Shown here piece after piece: positions 26,323-60,717 of a DNA stretch of 61,474 nucleotides. Numbering within the stretch: position 1 is the stretch's first letter; each line of letters starts with the position of its first letter. Below the pieces are notes generated by a model. It had not been told where the DNA came from, did not search any database, and was given only the letters and a program-made list of their open reading frames with translations. The stretch is from positions 1 to 61,474 of the forward strand of contig JAHQWL010000011.1 in assembly GCA_029856155.1 (NCBI GenBank), read 5' to 3'. The stretch comes from Promethearchaeia archaeon (GTDB lineage: Archaea; Asgardarchaeota; Lokiarchaeia; Sigyniarchaeales; SOKP01). The position numbers were made by a program, and so were the translations under genes.

Positions 26323-27822
26323 CTAGTAATTCGGTACTCTTACACTTTCTTCTTTTTTTGAATTAATGTGTTTATTACTTTTACTTTTTTTAGAACCCGC
26401 GATTTTTTGTAATAATGATAAACCGGGTTTCACTTCCGCTATAGGCTTCGACTCAATTAAGTCGTTTTCAATCAATTTATTATAGAGTTTTTTTCCTTTT
26501 TCAGTTCTAATAAGTACCGTATTCCATCCTGATGGAGACCCTATTGATCCAATTGAAATATCTGCGGATTCAGAGGTTAAATCGTAACAAATTTCACAAT
26601 CTTCTCGAGCTAAGTGTGAGATTTCTTTAATCGGAATGTTTAATTCTTCATCATTTTTTGTATATATAAAGAACTTTCCTTTATTGATATCCATTTTTTT
26701 TGCATTCTTAATATCCACATTCAATTTCTTACATATTTCCAAAAGTGACTCATAAGAAAATGATTCCATACAGAAGATTCCAATTTTATACTTAATAGTA
26801 TTTAAGGAGGGGATTCCAATATTGTAAAGCTCAGATTTTAAAATAGCTTGCATTTGACAAGGAACTCCTACTACCGCGATTTTTTTATTTTTTAGTTCCT
26901 TTTGATTTAGTATTTGCAAGTTAGGATTGTTTACATATTTAGTTCCAGCTGTTAATAGGATGTCTTCCTTATTTTTTAGTATTACTGGTTCAGGTCGCCA
27001 TAATGTATTACTCATTTTTGCTCCTAACGCAAAATCGATTTCATTTTTATCAAAAAGATAATGTAAACAAGTACTTGAAATTCCTCCATCTTGACATATC
27101 ATCGAAATTTCTTTTATTTTTGTTCTTGCTGAATAGGCTTCAAGAAAATGTCCAATCTTCTCATAATCTTTAATCTTGGAAGCTTTTTCTTGTGTCATAT
27201 TTAAAATTTTCATGGGTAAAAAAGTTCTTGGACAAACAAAATAACACAGTCCACAGCGAATACACTTATCTTCATCAATTTTCCCAAAACCATTATAAAT
27301 ATGAAGGCAATTCACAGGACATATTCCCGCACACAAACCACAACCAGAACAAATTTTAGAATCAAAAATCACTTTTACTGGTTCATATATAGGTTTTAAT
27401 TGTGAAATTGGATCATCATTAATTTTTATTGAATAATCTTTAAAGATGAATTTAGCAGGATTATTTTCGTCTCCTTCAATTTCATCAACTAATTCTTCAA
27501 GAAGTATTAGTTTTTCATTTTTAAGTAATTCTAGTAAACATAATGTTTTACTTAACTCAATAGAGTTAAGATCAGAAAATTTAATTAGAGTTTTTAAATT
27601 ATTTTTAGAATTATTTTTTAAATCATTAAATAGGGAATATTTTAGCTTTTCTTCATCTAACATTCTATAAAGGATAATATCATATTGAGATTCATCATAT
27701 ATTCCCGCTTTTAAAATGTCTTGCTTAGCATCTATTAGTGCTCTAATTCTATATGAATCTAAAGCATCTGCTACATTTTTTAAAAATTCCCATGAAAAAT
27801 TTTCTTCAAGATTCATAATCAT
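26323..27822 (-). CDS. FrhB-like F420/ferredoxin oxidoreductase subunit with two 4Fe-4S clusters
   Basis: A 499-residue redox protein. Residues 1-145 form an uncommon helical extension. Cys158, 161, 164 and 168 and Cys187, 190, 193 and 197 form two 4Fe-4S sites. The rest is the FrhB/FdhB domain: CQDGGISSTCLHYLF, a GTKYVNNP stretch, VVGVPCQMQAI, KIGIFCMESF, and a closing CEICYDLTSESADISIGSIG, as in F420-reducing hydrogenase beta. FrhB proteins pass electrons between iron-sulfur centres, flavin and F420. It is third after hdrA and mvhD on the same strand, 87 bases from mvhD, and probably gives the Hdr module its own electron partner. A cofC gene at 33372 supports F420 in the cell. Confidence 0.88.
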   Translation of the reverse strand: MIMNLEENFSWEFLKNVADALDSYRIRALIDAKQDILKAGIYDESQYDIILYRMLDEEKLKYSLFNDLKNNSKNNLKTLIKFSDLNSIELSKTLCLLELLKNEKLILLEELVDEIEGDENNPAKFIFKDYSIKINDDPISQLKPIYEPVKVIFDSKICSGCGLCAGICPVNCLHIYNGFGKIDEDKCIRCGLCYFVCPRTFLPMKILNMTQEKASKIKDYEKIGHFLEAYSARTKIKEISMICQDGGISSTCLHYLFDKNEIDFALGAKMSNTLWRPEPVILKNKEDILLTAGTKYVNNPNLQILNQKELKNKKIAVVGVPCQMQAILKSELYNIGIPSLNTIKYKIGIFCMESFSYESLLEICKKLNVDIKNAKKMDINKGKFFIYTKNDEELNIPIKEISHLAREDCEICYDLTSESADISIGSIGSPSGWNTVLIRTEKGKKLYNKLIENDLIESKPIAEVKPGLSLLQKIAGSKKSKSNKHINSKKEESVRVPNY

Positions 27823-27854
27823 TTTAAATTATTATAATTCTAAATTTTTCCGAA

Positions 27855-27903
27855 AACCCGAGCAAGGGGTTAGTTGCTTTTCAACTATAATTTTCTTGAA
27901 AAG
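27855..27903 (-). promoter_or_regulatory. Two hairpins in the mvhD 3' region, candidate SECIS
   Basis: The 87-base gap between mvhD and the FrhB-like gene is the only sizeable non-coding stretch in the operon. Reading the minus strand, CTTTTCAA pairs perfectly with TTGAAAAG (8 bp, 11-base loop, 27903 to 27877), then AACCC pairs with GGGTT (27871 to 27855) around CTTGCTC. An alternative pairs GAAAA with TTTTC outside CCC/GGG. Archaeal SECIS elements lie mostly in 3' untranslated regions, and the two upstream genes need one. By eye neither hairpin clearly matches the methanogen pattern with a GAA/A internal loop, so the assignment is by position only. Confidence 0.35.
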
Positions 27904-27909
27904 TTCATA

Positions 27910-28338
27910 CTATTTCGGATTGAATTTTGGAAGAGGAGGGAGTGCATTAATTTTAACGGACATATCTTCAACTGAATTTACAAATTTTTCAACTTCTGCT
28001 GCTGAACAGAAATACTGTTGAACCCGATCTTCAGAAATACCTTCATGTTTTAATAATTTCTTTAAAGTAAGTACATGTTCATATGTATTAATATTACCGT
28101 TACCAAATTCGCATTCACCTTCTTTTCAAGAAATTATTGCTACTCCATCAGCACCATTTAAGAAAGCTTCCATAATTAAATGTATTCCTATTCGTCCAGT
28201 GCATCTTACTCTAATGAGATGAAAATCTGTAGAGTATGATTTTCTTGTTGTGCCGGTTAAATCTGCTACAGAATAACCTCACTTATCACAACCAAAAGCA
28301 ACTATTCTTCTAGAAGTATTATCCTTTTTTATAGACAT
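27910..28338 (-). CDS. mvhD: MvhD/VhuD-like iron-sulfur subunit, selenoprotein with two UGA codons
   Basis: A 142-residue protein that appears broken in ordinary gene calls. Starting at the ATG at 28338, the frame is open to a TAG at 27910 if UGA at codon 20 (28279-28281) and codon 71 (28126-28128) are selenocysteine. The read-through gives AFGC-D-K-U-GYSVAD and GVAIIS-U-KEGECEFGNGN. In relatives these are the CxxC near the start and the GCHPGDCHY-type site; the shared RVRCTGRI and EAFLNGADGV pieces lie between them. MvhD links a hydrogenase or formate dehydrogenase to HdrA through a 2Fe-2S cluster. Methanogen VhuD is a known selenoprotein. The start is 21 bases after the hdrA stop. Confidence 0.92.
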
Positions 28339-28359: not shown

Positions 28360-30336
28360 TTATTCTTCAATACTTTCAGGAATTCTTTCTACAGTTTCTA
28401 ATTCAGTGCTGCCAATACCTTTAAGTTCCTGAGCAAATTGCTTATCTCGATAATATTTCAAGTCAATAGCTCTTGCTGGGCAAGAAGATACACATACACC
28501 GCAACCTTTACATTTTAAATCATTGACTTCAGCGATTTCATTTTCATTAACTTTTATTGCTTCATAGAAACACAGTTTTTCACACCTATGACATCCCATA
28601 CATAGTTCTTCATTTACTTCAGCAATAATTAATTCTTGTTTTATTGTGTCATGAGATAAAATAGTAGCAACTTTACTTGCAGCAGCTAAAGCAGAAGATA
28701 CTGAATATGGAATATTTTTTGGTCCAGCAGCACATCCAGCGATATAAATTCCAATATCTTTCGTTTCTTGTGGGCTTAGACACCCATGAATTTCTGAAAG
28801 AAATCCTCCTGGACCTTTACTTAATCCCATTACTTCGACCATTTCTTCAGTTCCTTTGGAAGGAATCATTCCTGTAGATAATACAACTAAATCAGCGTCA
28901 ATCTTTACTATCTCACCAGTTAAAGATGAATATGCTCTGACTTTTAATTTGTTAGTTTTATTATCCTCTATTATCTCGCCTACTTTTCCTCTAATCATTC
29001 GTATCCCTGATTCTCTTACATTTCTATAATATTCTTCATTTCCCTTATCGGTTGTTCGAATATCAATATAAAATATAATCACATCCATGTCGGGATATTC
29101 TTGTTTCAGTAATTGGGCATTTTTAAGCGCCACACTACAGCAAACAAAAGAACAATATGGATTAGCATTAACATCTCTAGACCCAACACATTGAACCATT
29201 ACTACGTTTTTTGGTGTTTCTCCATTGGAAATTCGATATACATGTCCTCCTGTAGGTCCAATAGGACTTAATAATCTTTCTAATTCTATTTGTGTAATCA
29301 CATCGGGATAAAATCCATAATTATATTCGTTGGATTTCCATATTGGATACTCATCCCAGCCTGTCGCTATAATTACTGCTCCAACATTAATGTCGATAAA
29401 TTCTGTTTCTTGCTCAAAATTAATTGCTTCAGCAGGGCATATTCGCTCACAATTTTTGCAATCAATACAAACACTTCTATCCATAACAGCTAATTTCGGT
29501 ACTGCTTGGGGAAATGGAATATAGATTGCTCCTCTTTCACCAATACCTCTATCAAACTCACTAGGAACTTTAATAGGACATTTTGTTGTACATAATCCAC
29601 AACCAGTACATTTTCTCTCGTCAACATACCGAGCATTCTTTCTAATCTTAGCCTTATAATTTCCGGGGATACCACTGAATTCTATAACATCACTATAGGT
29701 AAATAAATTTATATTGGGATGTTTTGACGCATTAACCATTATTGGTGCCAGAACTCATATTCCGCAATCATCCGTTGGATATATCCTATCTAATTGTGCC
29801 ATTTTTCCCCCAATAGTTGCTTCTTTTTCAATTAAATAGACGGGAATTCCTTGATTGGCTAAATCTAAAGCAGCATTCATTCCAGCAATTCCTGCTCCAA
29901 CAATTAAAACTGCTTTTTCTACAGGAATTTCTTTTCGTGGAATGTTTTCTAATTCACGAGCACGATTAATTCCGGCTCTAACAAGTCTTATAGCTTTTTC
30001 AGTGGCCTTTTGTTTATCGTCTCTATGGACAAAAGAACAATGTTCTCTTAAATTAACCATTTGAAAATAATAAGGACTTAAACCGGCTTCAATTAAAACA
30101 GCTCTATAGGTGGGTTCATGAATTTTTGGGGTACATGCCGCAACTACTACTCTATTCAAATCCTGTTCTAAAATGTCATTTCTGATAGTATTTTGTCCTG
30201 GATCGCTACAAGTAAAAGAGTTTACCCTAGAGATCACTACATTTGGGAGATTTTCAATAGCATTTTTAACCGCATCACAGTCAACAGAAGCTTTTATATT
30301 CACTCCTCACTCACATACATAGACTCCTATTCTCAT
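28360..30336 (-). CDS. hdrA: Heterodisulfide reductase subunit A-like protein, selenoprotein with two UGA codons
   Basis: A 658-residue flavin and iron-sulfur protein, the electron-bifurcating core of Hdr complexes. From the ATG at 30336 the frame continues through UGA at codon 10 (30307-30309) and codon 194 (29755-29757) to a stop at 28360; without recoding it appears as two pieces. The start MRIGVYVCE-U-GVNI matches the HdrA opening VCxCG. The second site, PTDDCGI-U-VLAP, matches DDCxxC just after the FAD fold (GAGIAGMNAALDLA near 150). Four 4Fe-4S sites follow: near residues 243-253, 291, 578 and 607. It is first in hdrA-mvhD-frhB. HdrA with selenocysteine at the DDCxxU position is known from methanogens. 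No HdrB or HdrC lies beside it. Confidence 0.94.
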
Positions 30337-30568
30337 ATTGGTCTGATTTTCAGACACCTAATTCACCTTTTTGTAAAAACTCACCAAAAATTTTTTATTT
30401 ACTTAAAAGACTACATTAAATCTTATTGGTTTATGAAATTATGGAATTAATTTATTTTTTCTGATTAGACTTCAATAAGTGTTAATATATATTTTCTTTT
30501 ATTTCATTTTTAATTTTTAATTAATTCTTCTCGTGAATTTTTTATTGAAAAAATAATTATTTAATATT

Positions 30569-30826: not shown

Positions 30827-32116
30827 TTGCTTGACATTGAGTTGTTCAGAAACAATCTTGATAATATAATTGAGTCCGAGAAAAAAAGGTTTAAGGAACC
30901 TATAAATGCTGAGAAGGTTTTAGAATACGATATTAAATGGAGGTCAGTGATACAAGAATTACAAGATTTAAGGAAAGAAAGAAATGAAATTTCAATTAAA
31001 ATTGGAGAATTGAAAAAATTAAATGAAAACAAAAAAGCAGAAGAAATAGTAAAAAAGTCAAAAGAAATTAAAGAAAAAATTGATGAATTAGAAACATTAA
31101 GAGAAGAATATTTTGAACAGCGAGAAAAATATCGTTATATGGTAGGAAATATTCTACATGAATCTGTTCCTATTGGTCAAACTGAAAAAGAAAATGAAAT
31201 TTTAAGGACTTTTGGAAAGGTACCAAAATTTGATTTTAAACCATTATCTCATGTTGATTTAATTGAAAAAATTGATGGCGTAGATATTAAAAAAGCTTCA
31301 GAACTTGTGGGTTCAAGATTCTTCTATTTAAAAGGAGACCTAGTTTTACTTAATTTAGCTCTTTTGAAATACGCATTAGACAAATTAATAAATAAGAATT
31401 ATAGCCCTATGTGGCCTCCCTTCTTTACAAAATATGAAGTGATGAAATCAGCAGCAGAATTAACAGATTTTGAAGATCAATTATATAAAATCCAGGATGA
31501 GGATTTATATATGATTGCTACATCTGAACAACCTTTAGCTGCTTATCATTATAATGAAATAATAGACCCAGAAAGGCTACCAATTAAATATGCAGGAATT
31601 TCTTCATGCTTTAGAAGAGAAGCGGGATCACATGGAAAGGATACTTTAGGAATTTTTAGAGTACATCGGTTTGAAAAAGTAGAACAATTTATTTTTTGTA
31701 AACCCGAAGATTCATGGAATTATCATGAGGAATTGATTAAAAATGCTGAAGAGATTTACAAGGAATTAAAATTACATTACAGAATTGTTAACATTGCTTC
31801 TGGAGAATTAAATGATAATGCAGCAAAGAAGTATGATTTAGAAGTATGGTTCCCTTCTTCAGAAACATACCGAGAATTAGTATCTTGCAGTAATTGTTTA
31901 GATTATCAAGCAAGAAAATTAAAAATTCGTATGGGAAAAGTTGGTTCCCTAGAAACGAAAGAAATCTTACATACCTTAAATTCAACTGCAATAGCAACCG
32001 AACGTACTATCTGTTGTATCCTTGAGAATTATCAAAACAAGGATCACTCAATATCAATACCTAAAGTACTCCAAAAATATATGGATGGCAGAAAGATTAT
32101 TAAGGCAATAAAATAA
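30827..32116 (+). CDS. serS: Seryl-tRNA synthetase
   Basis: A 429-residue class II synthetase that charges tRNA-Ser and, where present, tRNA-Sec as the first step of selenocysteine synthesis. It starts at TTG, fixed by an AGAGGGA ribosome site six bases upstream. Residues 1-105 form the antiparallel coiled-coil arm that grips the long variable arm. Motif 2 reads SSCFRREAGSHGKDTLGIFRVHRF-like near residues 257-280 and motif 3 is NSTAIATERTICCILENYQ near 384. This is the common form, not the rare methanogen type. The neighbouring tRNA-Ser lies far off at 60.6 kb. The selenoprotein operon lies just across the divergent gap. Confidence 0.97.
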   Translation: MLDIELFRNNLDNIIESEKKRFKEPINAEKVLEYDIKWRSVIQELQDLRKERNEISIKIGELKKLNENKKAEEIVKKSKEIKEKIDELETLREEYFEQREKYRYMVGNILHESVPIGQTEKENEILRTFGKVPKFDFKPLSHVDLIEKIDGVDIKKASELVGSRFFYLKGDLVLLNLALLKYALDKLINKNYSPMWPPFFTKYEVMKSAAELTDFEDQLYKIQDEDLYMIATSEQPLAAYHYNEIIDPERLPIKYAGISSCFRREAGSHGKDTLGIFRVHRFEKVEQFIFCKPEDSWNYHEELIKNAEEIYKELKLHYRIVNIASGELNDNAAKKYDLEVWFPSSETYRELVSCSNCLDYQARKLKIRMGKVGSLETKEILHTLNSTAIATERTICCILENYQNKDHSISIPKVLQKYMDGRKIIKAIK

Positions 32117-60612: not shown

Positions 60613-60717
60613 CGCAGCTGGAGGGATTCGAACCCCCGAGCGCTTATGCGCACCGGCTTTCTTGATCATCATAAAAAACGCTCGAGGCCGGCGTCTTACC
60701 ATCTAGGCTACAGCTGC
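60613..60717 (-). tRNA. tRNA-Ser(CGA) with 22-base intron
   Basis: On the minus strand, acceptor GCAGCTG (from 60717) pairs perfectly with CAGCTGC, with discriminator G at 60613. The anticodon stem CCGGC/GCCGG is perfect, the T-arm reads GGGGG-TTCGAAT-CCCTC, and a long variable arm GCGC-ATAA-GCGC marks a class II tRNA. With the loop C-T-CGA-G-A the anticodon is CGA. A 22-base insert (60680-60659) lies between positions 37 and 38, the usual archaeal intron site. The D stem has one mismatch (C11/A24). The tRNA is not for Sec, since the acceptor is 7 bp and the anticodon is not UCA. Confidence 0.93.

Follow-up and report, generated by a model that had tools for sequence, protein, structure and literature searches.

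Two predicted selenocysteines of an Asgard archaeal HdrA at probable ligand sites of one iron-sulfur cluster

The DNA analysed here, a stretch of 61,474 nucleotides from a Promethearchaeia archaeon that we call the window, carries an hdrA gene whose reading frame contains two UGA codons. The question raised by this locus is whether these codons are read as selenocysteine (Sec) and, if so, what two such residues would do in HdrA. The features concerned are the following.

28360..30336, minus strand: hdrA, 658 codons, two in-frame TGA codons predicted to encode Sec
30307..30309, minus strand: UGA codon 10 of hdrA (VCE-U-G), predicted Sec, in the N-terminal domain
29755..29757, minus strand: UGA codon 194 of hdrA (DDCGI-U), predicted Sec, aligning with Cys197 of 5odc_A

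An earlier note on this DNA had described a single open frame starting at an ATG, with UGA at codons 10 and 194, and had proposed a double-Sec HdrA. Its frame and coordinates are right; the strand, which it left unsaid, is the minus strand. With TGA counted as a residue, the frame is uninterrupted over its 658 codons from the ATG at 30336 to the TAA ending at 28360, a GTG at 30357 being a possible alternative start, and the plus strand at this locus holds many stops. The read-through protein is homologous over residues 2-641 to 5odc_A, the HdrA of Methanothermococcus (phmmer 1.5e-210), and to 9sfi_A. Its AlphaFold model (pLDDT 86.4, pTM 0.83) has the HdrA fold and matches 5odc_A with a TM of 0.92, so that both UGA sites lie within a normal HdrA fold. 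9sfi_A has an X, probably Sec, at the U194 site, and where the window protein has U10, C43 and C68 both chains carry Cys. Among named contigs, the nearest are those of Candidatus Lokiarchaeota MAGs, the best of them 99% identical across the entire HdrA. Matches to NF040770 (HdrA2, 816 bits), NF041891 (616 bits) and NF041778 (593 bits) do not reach the respective cut-offs of 1100, 1300 and 1400. NF040770 joins HdrA and MvhD in one model, of which the window HdrA covers positions 1-642 and the FrhD encoded downstream positions 643-772, whereas the window has two genes, scores below the cut-off and an FrhB-type gene next.

We compared 86 non-identical full-length HdrAs of the Sec type with 121 Sec-free homologues, having dropped partial loci, copies with identical last 550 residues and database proteins of 640 aa or less. 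Site 10 is U in 86/86 Sec-type proteins and Cys in 121/121 Sec-free ones; site 194 is U in 86/86, a set collected with a Sec-type query and thus not a census, and Cys in 120/121. The earlier note had expected Cys at both sites in relatives, and the alignment agrees, homologues having Cys or Sec at either site except for one Tyr among the 121 at site 194. It had also called the N-terminal Sec the less expected of the two, which did not hold: site 10 is Sec in each of the 86 Sec-type HdrAs and, in a later set, at 15 of 17 loci that bear UGA. Further U sites among the 86 are 68 (in 23 proteins), 43 (in 12) and 296 (in 6). Only 26 of 641 columns are more than 90% Cys in the Sec-free set, and these take 213 of the 215 UGAs of the 86 frames, the expectation from scatter being about 9. 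Because the UGAs are conserved in 86/86 at both sites and almost all stand at Cys columns, chance is excluded. C8 and C191, equally invariant, are never Sec (0/86), nor are Cys 383, 395, 399 and 400, which we take to be the ligands of the FAD-domain cluster, or the Cys of the C-terminal ferredoxin part (0/86). Single TGAs at non-Cys columns were seen at site 105 of locus L091 and site 157 of L094 and L223 (the same place); these could be errors, real stops or odd Sec sites.

Many assemblies contain relatives, of 52-99% identity, that have the same UGA codons. U10 and U194 are also found together in loci of Sigynarchaeota, Freyarchaeota, Jordarchaeia and Helarchaeota (L095-L099, L110), so that the pair predates this organism. 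It is not obligatory, since 2 of the 20 loci in the later set, L206 and L207, combine a TGA at 194 with a Cys at site 10. L119-L147 and some of L206-L225 come from the same contigs as L039-L118 (L208 and L115, for instance, are one place, as are L223 and L094), so neither this 20-locus tally nor that of the frhD pairs is a count of independent loci. The Sec states are nested, as {194}, {10,194}, {10,68,194} and {10,43,68,194}, with 296 added in some. A tally of N-domains at sites 8/10/43/68 gave CUCC 64, CUCU 11, CUUU 13 and CCCC 24 (n = 112, and one more partial), Sec occurring at 43 only with Sec at 68, and at 68 only with Sec at 10. This nesting suggests that Sec was gained in the order 194, 10, 68, 43. 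Within the genome of the window (4.1 Mb, 104 contigs), hdrA paralogues carry two TGAs on C11 (the window), C22 and C98, three on C21 and four on C3, where the gene is cut by the contig end; several further paralogues have none. Across the phylum, with five candidates scored per genome, 208 of 227 genomes have a match of E 1e-120 or better, and among the matches listed the number of TGAs per HdrA runs from none to five.

The Sec system of this locus extends beyond hdrA, with two more UGAs in frhD and a SECIS element behind it:

27910..28338, minus strand: frhD/mvhD/vhuD, 142 codons, TGA at codons 20 and 71 (Pfam FlpD PF02662, 1.1e-37)
28279..28281, minus strand: UGA codon 20 of frhD, predicted Sec, recurring in relatives
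28126..28128, minus strand: UGA codon 71 of frhD, predicted Sec, recurring in relatives
27840..27930, minus strand: SECIS, eukaryote-like, AUGA core at 27908-27905, covariance model R1
26323..27822, minus strand: gene like the F420-hydrogenase/dehydrogenase beta subunit (FrhB/FdhB type), with ferredoxin motifs, directly after frhD

Aligned to the window FrhD, 5odc_D has Cys at both UGA sites. The spacer of 21 bases suggests that hdrA and frhD lie on one mRNA. The product of the FrhB-type gene (Pfam FrhB_FdhB_C 1.2e-44; NF006807 293.7 bits, cut-off 269) is a possible electron donor subunit.

The SECIS begins in the last frhD codons and contains the frhD stop codon. Model R1 was trained on the frhD 3' ends of 41 relatives' loci, leaving the window element out; on the window it scored 89.8 bits (E 5.6e-22) at this held-out element and 17 bits at its next match, so the element behind frhD is the only strong SECIS in the window. 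The alignment shows three helices, with the AUGA and the AAA of the apical loop invariant in 41/41, two-sided changes in 16 of 18 pairs and 92.7% of cells paired. Of 500 shuffles, none scored as high on paired cells and two-sided changes and five did on pair types; a one-column shift of the partners lowered paired cells to at most 61%. By eye, the window element has AUGA and AA, in line with the Asgard eukaryote-like type I SECIS, which has an AUGA_GA or AUGA_AA core and, in its apical loop, unpaired As. We propose that this one SECIS serves all four UGAs (hdrA 10 and 194, frhD 20 and 71), of which U10 of hdrA is the farthest, about 2.4 kb from the core. A short hairpin noticed by eye just ahead of the hdrA start, near 30357, was weighed as another SECIS and rejected: by eye it has no AUGA core, and R1 has a single strong match in the window. 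Elsewhere, the five-TGA HdrA frames (10, 43, 68, 194, 296) of L208 and L209 are each followed by a two-UGA frhD and then by one R1 SECIS (65.4 and 60 bits). R1 recognized the SECIS of 10 out of 17 UGA-bearing loci and missed that of the other seven, four of these loci being from other taxonomic families and three from a same-family paralogue group at 46-48% identity to the window HdrA; it found none in six Sec-free loci, where the L216 stretch barely extends beyond the gene.

In the whole genome, R1 gave nine matches of 45-90 bits and one of 24 bits, a lower bound as 150 of 7041 first-look candidates were scored. Six of the nine lie behind genes of known selenoprotein families:

C11 and C98: hdrA-frhD pairs
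C30: hdrA end and frhD
C22: hdrA alone
C57: peroxiredoxin-like gene with GNWUSHC (Pfam AhpC-TSA)
C33: short VhuU-like frame (by eye) behind a hydrogenase large-subunit gene

The C22 gene (L155, C22:47457-49552, minus strand) is a two-UGA hdrA with its own SECIS directly after the stop and no frhD behind it. R1 misses SelD and the hdrA-frhD pair on C21, after which an AUGA hairpin is visible. The other three of the nine lie behind short one-TGA frames without a Pfam match (C24, C74, C103).

The frame on C24 and nine relatives (family A, L191-L200) encode proteins of about 66-88 aa with one hydrophobic segment, followed in the 88-aa C24 member by a Sec-Cys pair. The taxonomic family has 65 genomes, of which 10, the present one among them, contain a member. 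Every member has an in-frame TGA (L198 two) and a SECIS of 46-76 bits at the stop codon; the motif is UxC in eight and CxU in two, and in a separate alignment of their SECIS elements 10 of 16 pairs change on both sides. Among 5.8 billion proteins searched, 37 matched, and Cys does not replace the Sec in any of the 15 examined: six end at the UGA site and nine continue with Trp (P0134 in a changed motif). The C74 frame and three relatives (family B, L202-L205; 4 of the 65 genomes, this one included) encode proteins of about 100 aa with a hydrophobic segment, an acidic stretch and then a Cys before the Sec, by two residues in three of the four and by four in L205. TGA and SECIS are present in 4/4, and, judged by eye, the SECIS carries the stop codon in its apical loop. 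The third frame (L201, C103:54554-54778, minus strand) encodes 75 aa with two hydrophobic segments and one TGA (TVSUR), with a 55-bit SECIS behind it; a search of the taxonomic family's 64 other genomes at E 0.001 gave no relative.

The genome also holds the machinery for Sec that the earlier note had suggested looking for. A tRNA-Sec at C44:153209-153297 scores above the cut-off, in a search that gave weak matches in all 14 control genomes, 5 of them above the cut-off. Near it are a SepSecS gene (385.6 bits; TIGR03531 483.4 bits, above cut-off) and an aEFSec-like factor whose 238.8 bits fall just below the selB cut-off of 242.25. SepSecS is adjoined by L153, on the same contig, a match to NF045535, a putative Asgard Sec-system protein (219.6 bits, cut-off 132). 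SelD is above its cut-off and has one in-frame TGA of its own, and a PSTK-like gene matches over its full length (E 2.1e-45; 155.7 bits, cut-off 290.5). The locus thus combines UGA at Cys sites, a SECIS and Sec genes in the genome, the PSTK and SelB matches lying below curated cut-offs, and we predict from these that Sec is actually inserted at the hdrA UGAs. A serS gene (30827-32116, plus strand) lies divergently to hdrA, its start about 490 bases away; its product would charge tRNA-Sec with serine, and its position is possibly a coincidence. At the other end of the window (60613-60717, minus strand) is a tRNA gene of unusual length (Rfam 43.4 bits), probably with an intron; ARAGORN reported 0 tRNA genes in the window.

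As to what Sec would do at these sites, residues 2-207 of HdrA align with 5odc_A gap-free at an offset of +3, so that site 194 corresponds to chain position 197 of 5odc_A, which is the published Cys197 provided that numbering of the chain begins with its first residue. According to the accessible text of Chadwick et al. 2022 (PLoS Biol, PMC9012536), the N-terminal HdrA cluster is held by Cys of the N-domain together with Cys197 of the other subunit, and electrons cross this cluster on their way to the inserted ferredoxin domain. PMC9012536 is the one source found to number the ligands, its accessible text naming Cys197 only. The invariant Cys (Cys or Sec) of the N-domain are at 8, 10, 43 and 68 only, and three of them, 10, 43 and 68, are found as Sec; the four sites are equally conserved (all Cys or Sec in 112 N-domains), conservation not setting C8 apart. 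By elimination, sites 10, 43 and 68 are likely the three N-domain ligands of this cluster, and the simplest reading would make 10, 43, 68 and 194 the four ligands of a single one, around which Sec probably replaces Cys, in some paralogues at as many as all four positions. Site 296, in the inserted ferredoxin domain, would belong to a later cluster on the same electron branch. A further-reaching reading, to which we assign a probability of about 0.55, is that the intersubunit cluster of HdrA is a selenolate-ligated [4Fe-4S] cluster, with Sec as two of four ligands in the window protein and as four of four in the paralogues with four UGAs (one on C3), acquired stepwise in the fixed order 194, 10, 68, 43 and then, in some lines, 296. 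We hold with considerably more confidence the joint statement that codons 10 and 194 of hdrA are read as Sec and that both residues are likely ligands of one common iron-sulfur cluster. The double-Sec HdrA of the earlier note is supported as the best reading of hdrA.

In the mechanism that we propose, the UGAs at hdrA 10 and 194 and at frhD 20 and 71 would be read as Sec under the one SECIS behind frhD. Sec194 of one subunit would be donated to the N-terminal cluster of the other, and Sec or Cys at 10, 43 and 68 would supply the remaining ligands. The selenolates may then adjust the potential of this cluster, which stands between the bifurcating FAD and the inserted ferredoxin domain on the electron path, in an HdrA-MvhD-FrhB-type complex that would perform electron bifurcation or confurcation. 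Such a role is likely, rather than the heterodisulfide reduction of methanogens. On contig C33, away from the window hdrA, the genome has a CCG-domain gene (HdrB-like, 104.6 bits) and one of ferredoxin type.

The two residues could also be Sec and yet serve as redox-active selenols, in CxxU (191/194) and CxU (8/10) pairs like those of thioredoxin reductase or selenenylsulfides, instead of binding a cluster. Sites 10 and 194 do each stand beside an invariant Cys that is never Sec in 86 sequences (C8 and C191), and the accessible text of a 2022 review (PMC9312934) gives the HdrA motif as CxxU. However, site 194 aligns with Cys197, a published cluster ligand, 43 and 68 become Sec without a close Cys partner, and site 296 falls within a ferredoxin CxxCxxCxxxC motif. 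The Cys of this motif are cluster ligands. We consider redox-active selenols unlikely and keep to the reading of Sec as cluster ligands.

Both of these readings take the UGAs to encode Sec. If they were real stops, the locus would be a broken gene, a product of assembly errors or two shorter proteins, and the standard code does yield two separate ORFs, of 459 and 182 aa. Against this, the codons recur in many assemblies at 52-99% identity, which also excludes a sequence error at both codons, the protein is conserved on either side of each UGA, and the SECIS is conserved; conservation thus rules out stops, a pseudogene or sequence error, unless SECIS and machinery serve other genes only, and we judge them highly improbable. 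Still less credit can be given to the idea that this lineage generally reads UGA as an amino acid. Database proteins P0122-P0129 do have Trp where small relatives from the phylum have UGA, but P0122 is L200 with TGA translated as Trp, so the Trp versions are probably gene calls made under another code. Moreover, 213/215 of the HdrA UGAs are at Cys columns, a Cys-only placement that rules reassignment out, and tRNA-Sec is present. As the earlier note had stated, TGA is a plain stop in other genes of the window: among 33 longer ORFs tallied, TAA ends 22, TAG 7 and TGA 4, and reading through these four would gain only 5-14 codons. Sec at codons 10 and 194, probably as cluster ligands, is therefore the reading that we retain.

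Parts of this picture have precedents. The Lokiarchaeota selenoproteome of Mariotti et al. 2016 reportedly comprised five selenoprotein families, of which three have more than one Sec. HdrA and VhuD probably belong to these three, and a double-Sec HdrA may already be included there. HdrA and FrhD have been described as selenoproteins with a common SECIS across Asgard archaea, within seven families in all (Huang et al. 2024, PMC11227280, accessible text). As far as that text goes, the pair resembles that of the window in gene content, order, short spacer and joint AUGA-type SECIS, and hdrA and frhD always occur together, to which the hdrA of C22, followed by a SECIS but by no frhD, is an exception; we found in it no mention of site numbers or of multiple Sec in HdrA. 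In the accessible part of a 2026 review (PMC13188914), FrhD/VhuD is the only protein said to have multiple Sec. The literature searched gave nothing, as far as the texts were accessible, on more than one Sec site in HdrA or on Sec as a ligand of its cluster. Families A and B and L201 are absent from the seven families in the accessible text of Huang et al. (PMC11227280), and a literature search found nothing on them; A and B are candidate selenoprotein families and may be newer than the HdrA finding. What is known, then, in the accessible texts, is that Asgard HdrAs are selenoproteins and share a SECIS with frhD; the ligand pattern was not found in print there.

Few proteins contain several Sec, and little work has been done on Sec as a ligand of iron-sulfur clusters. 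If the ligand reading is true, Asgard HdrA would be a natural series in which one cluster carries 0, 1, 2, 3 or 4 selenolate ligands, and the effect of selenium on cluster potential and on bifurcation would become directly testable. A single SECIS appears to cover four UGAs here and as many as seven in the relative L115, where hdrA has five and frhD two; this lineage is regarded as one of the closest to eukaryotes. In addition, the SECIS model points to selenoprotein families that homology searches starting from known families would miss.
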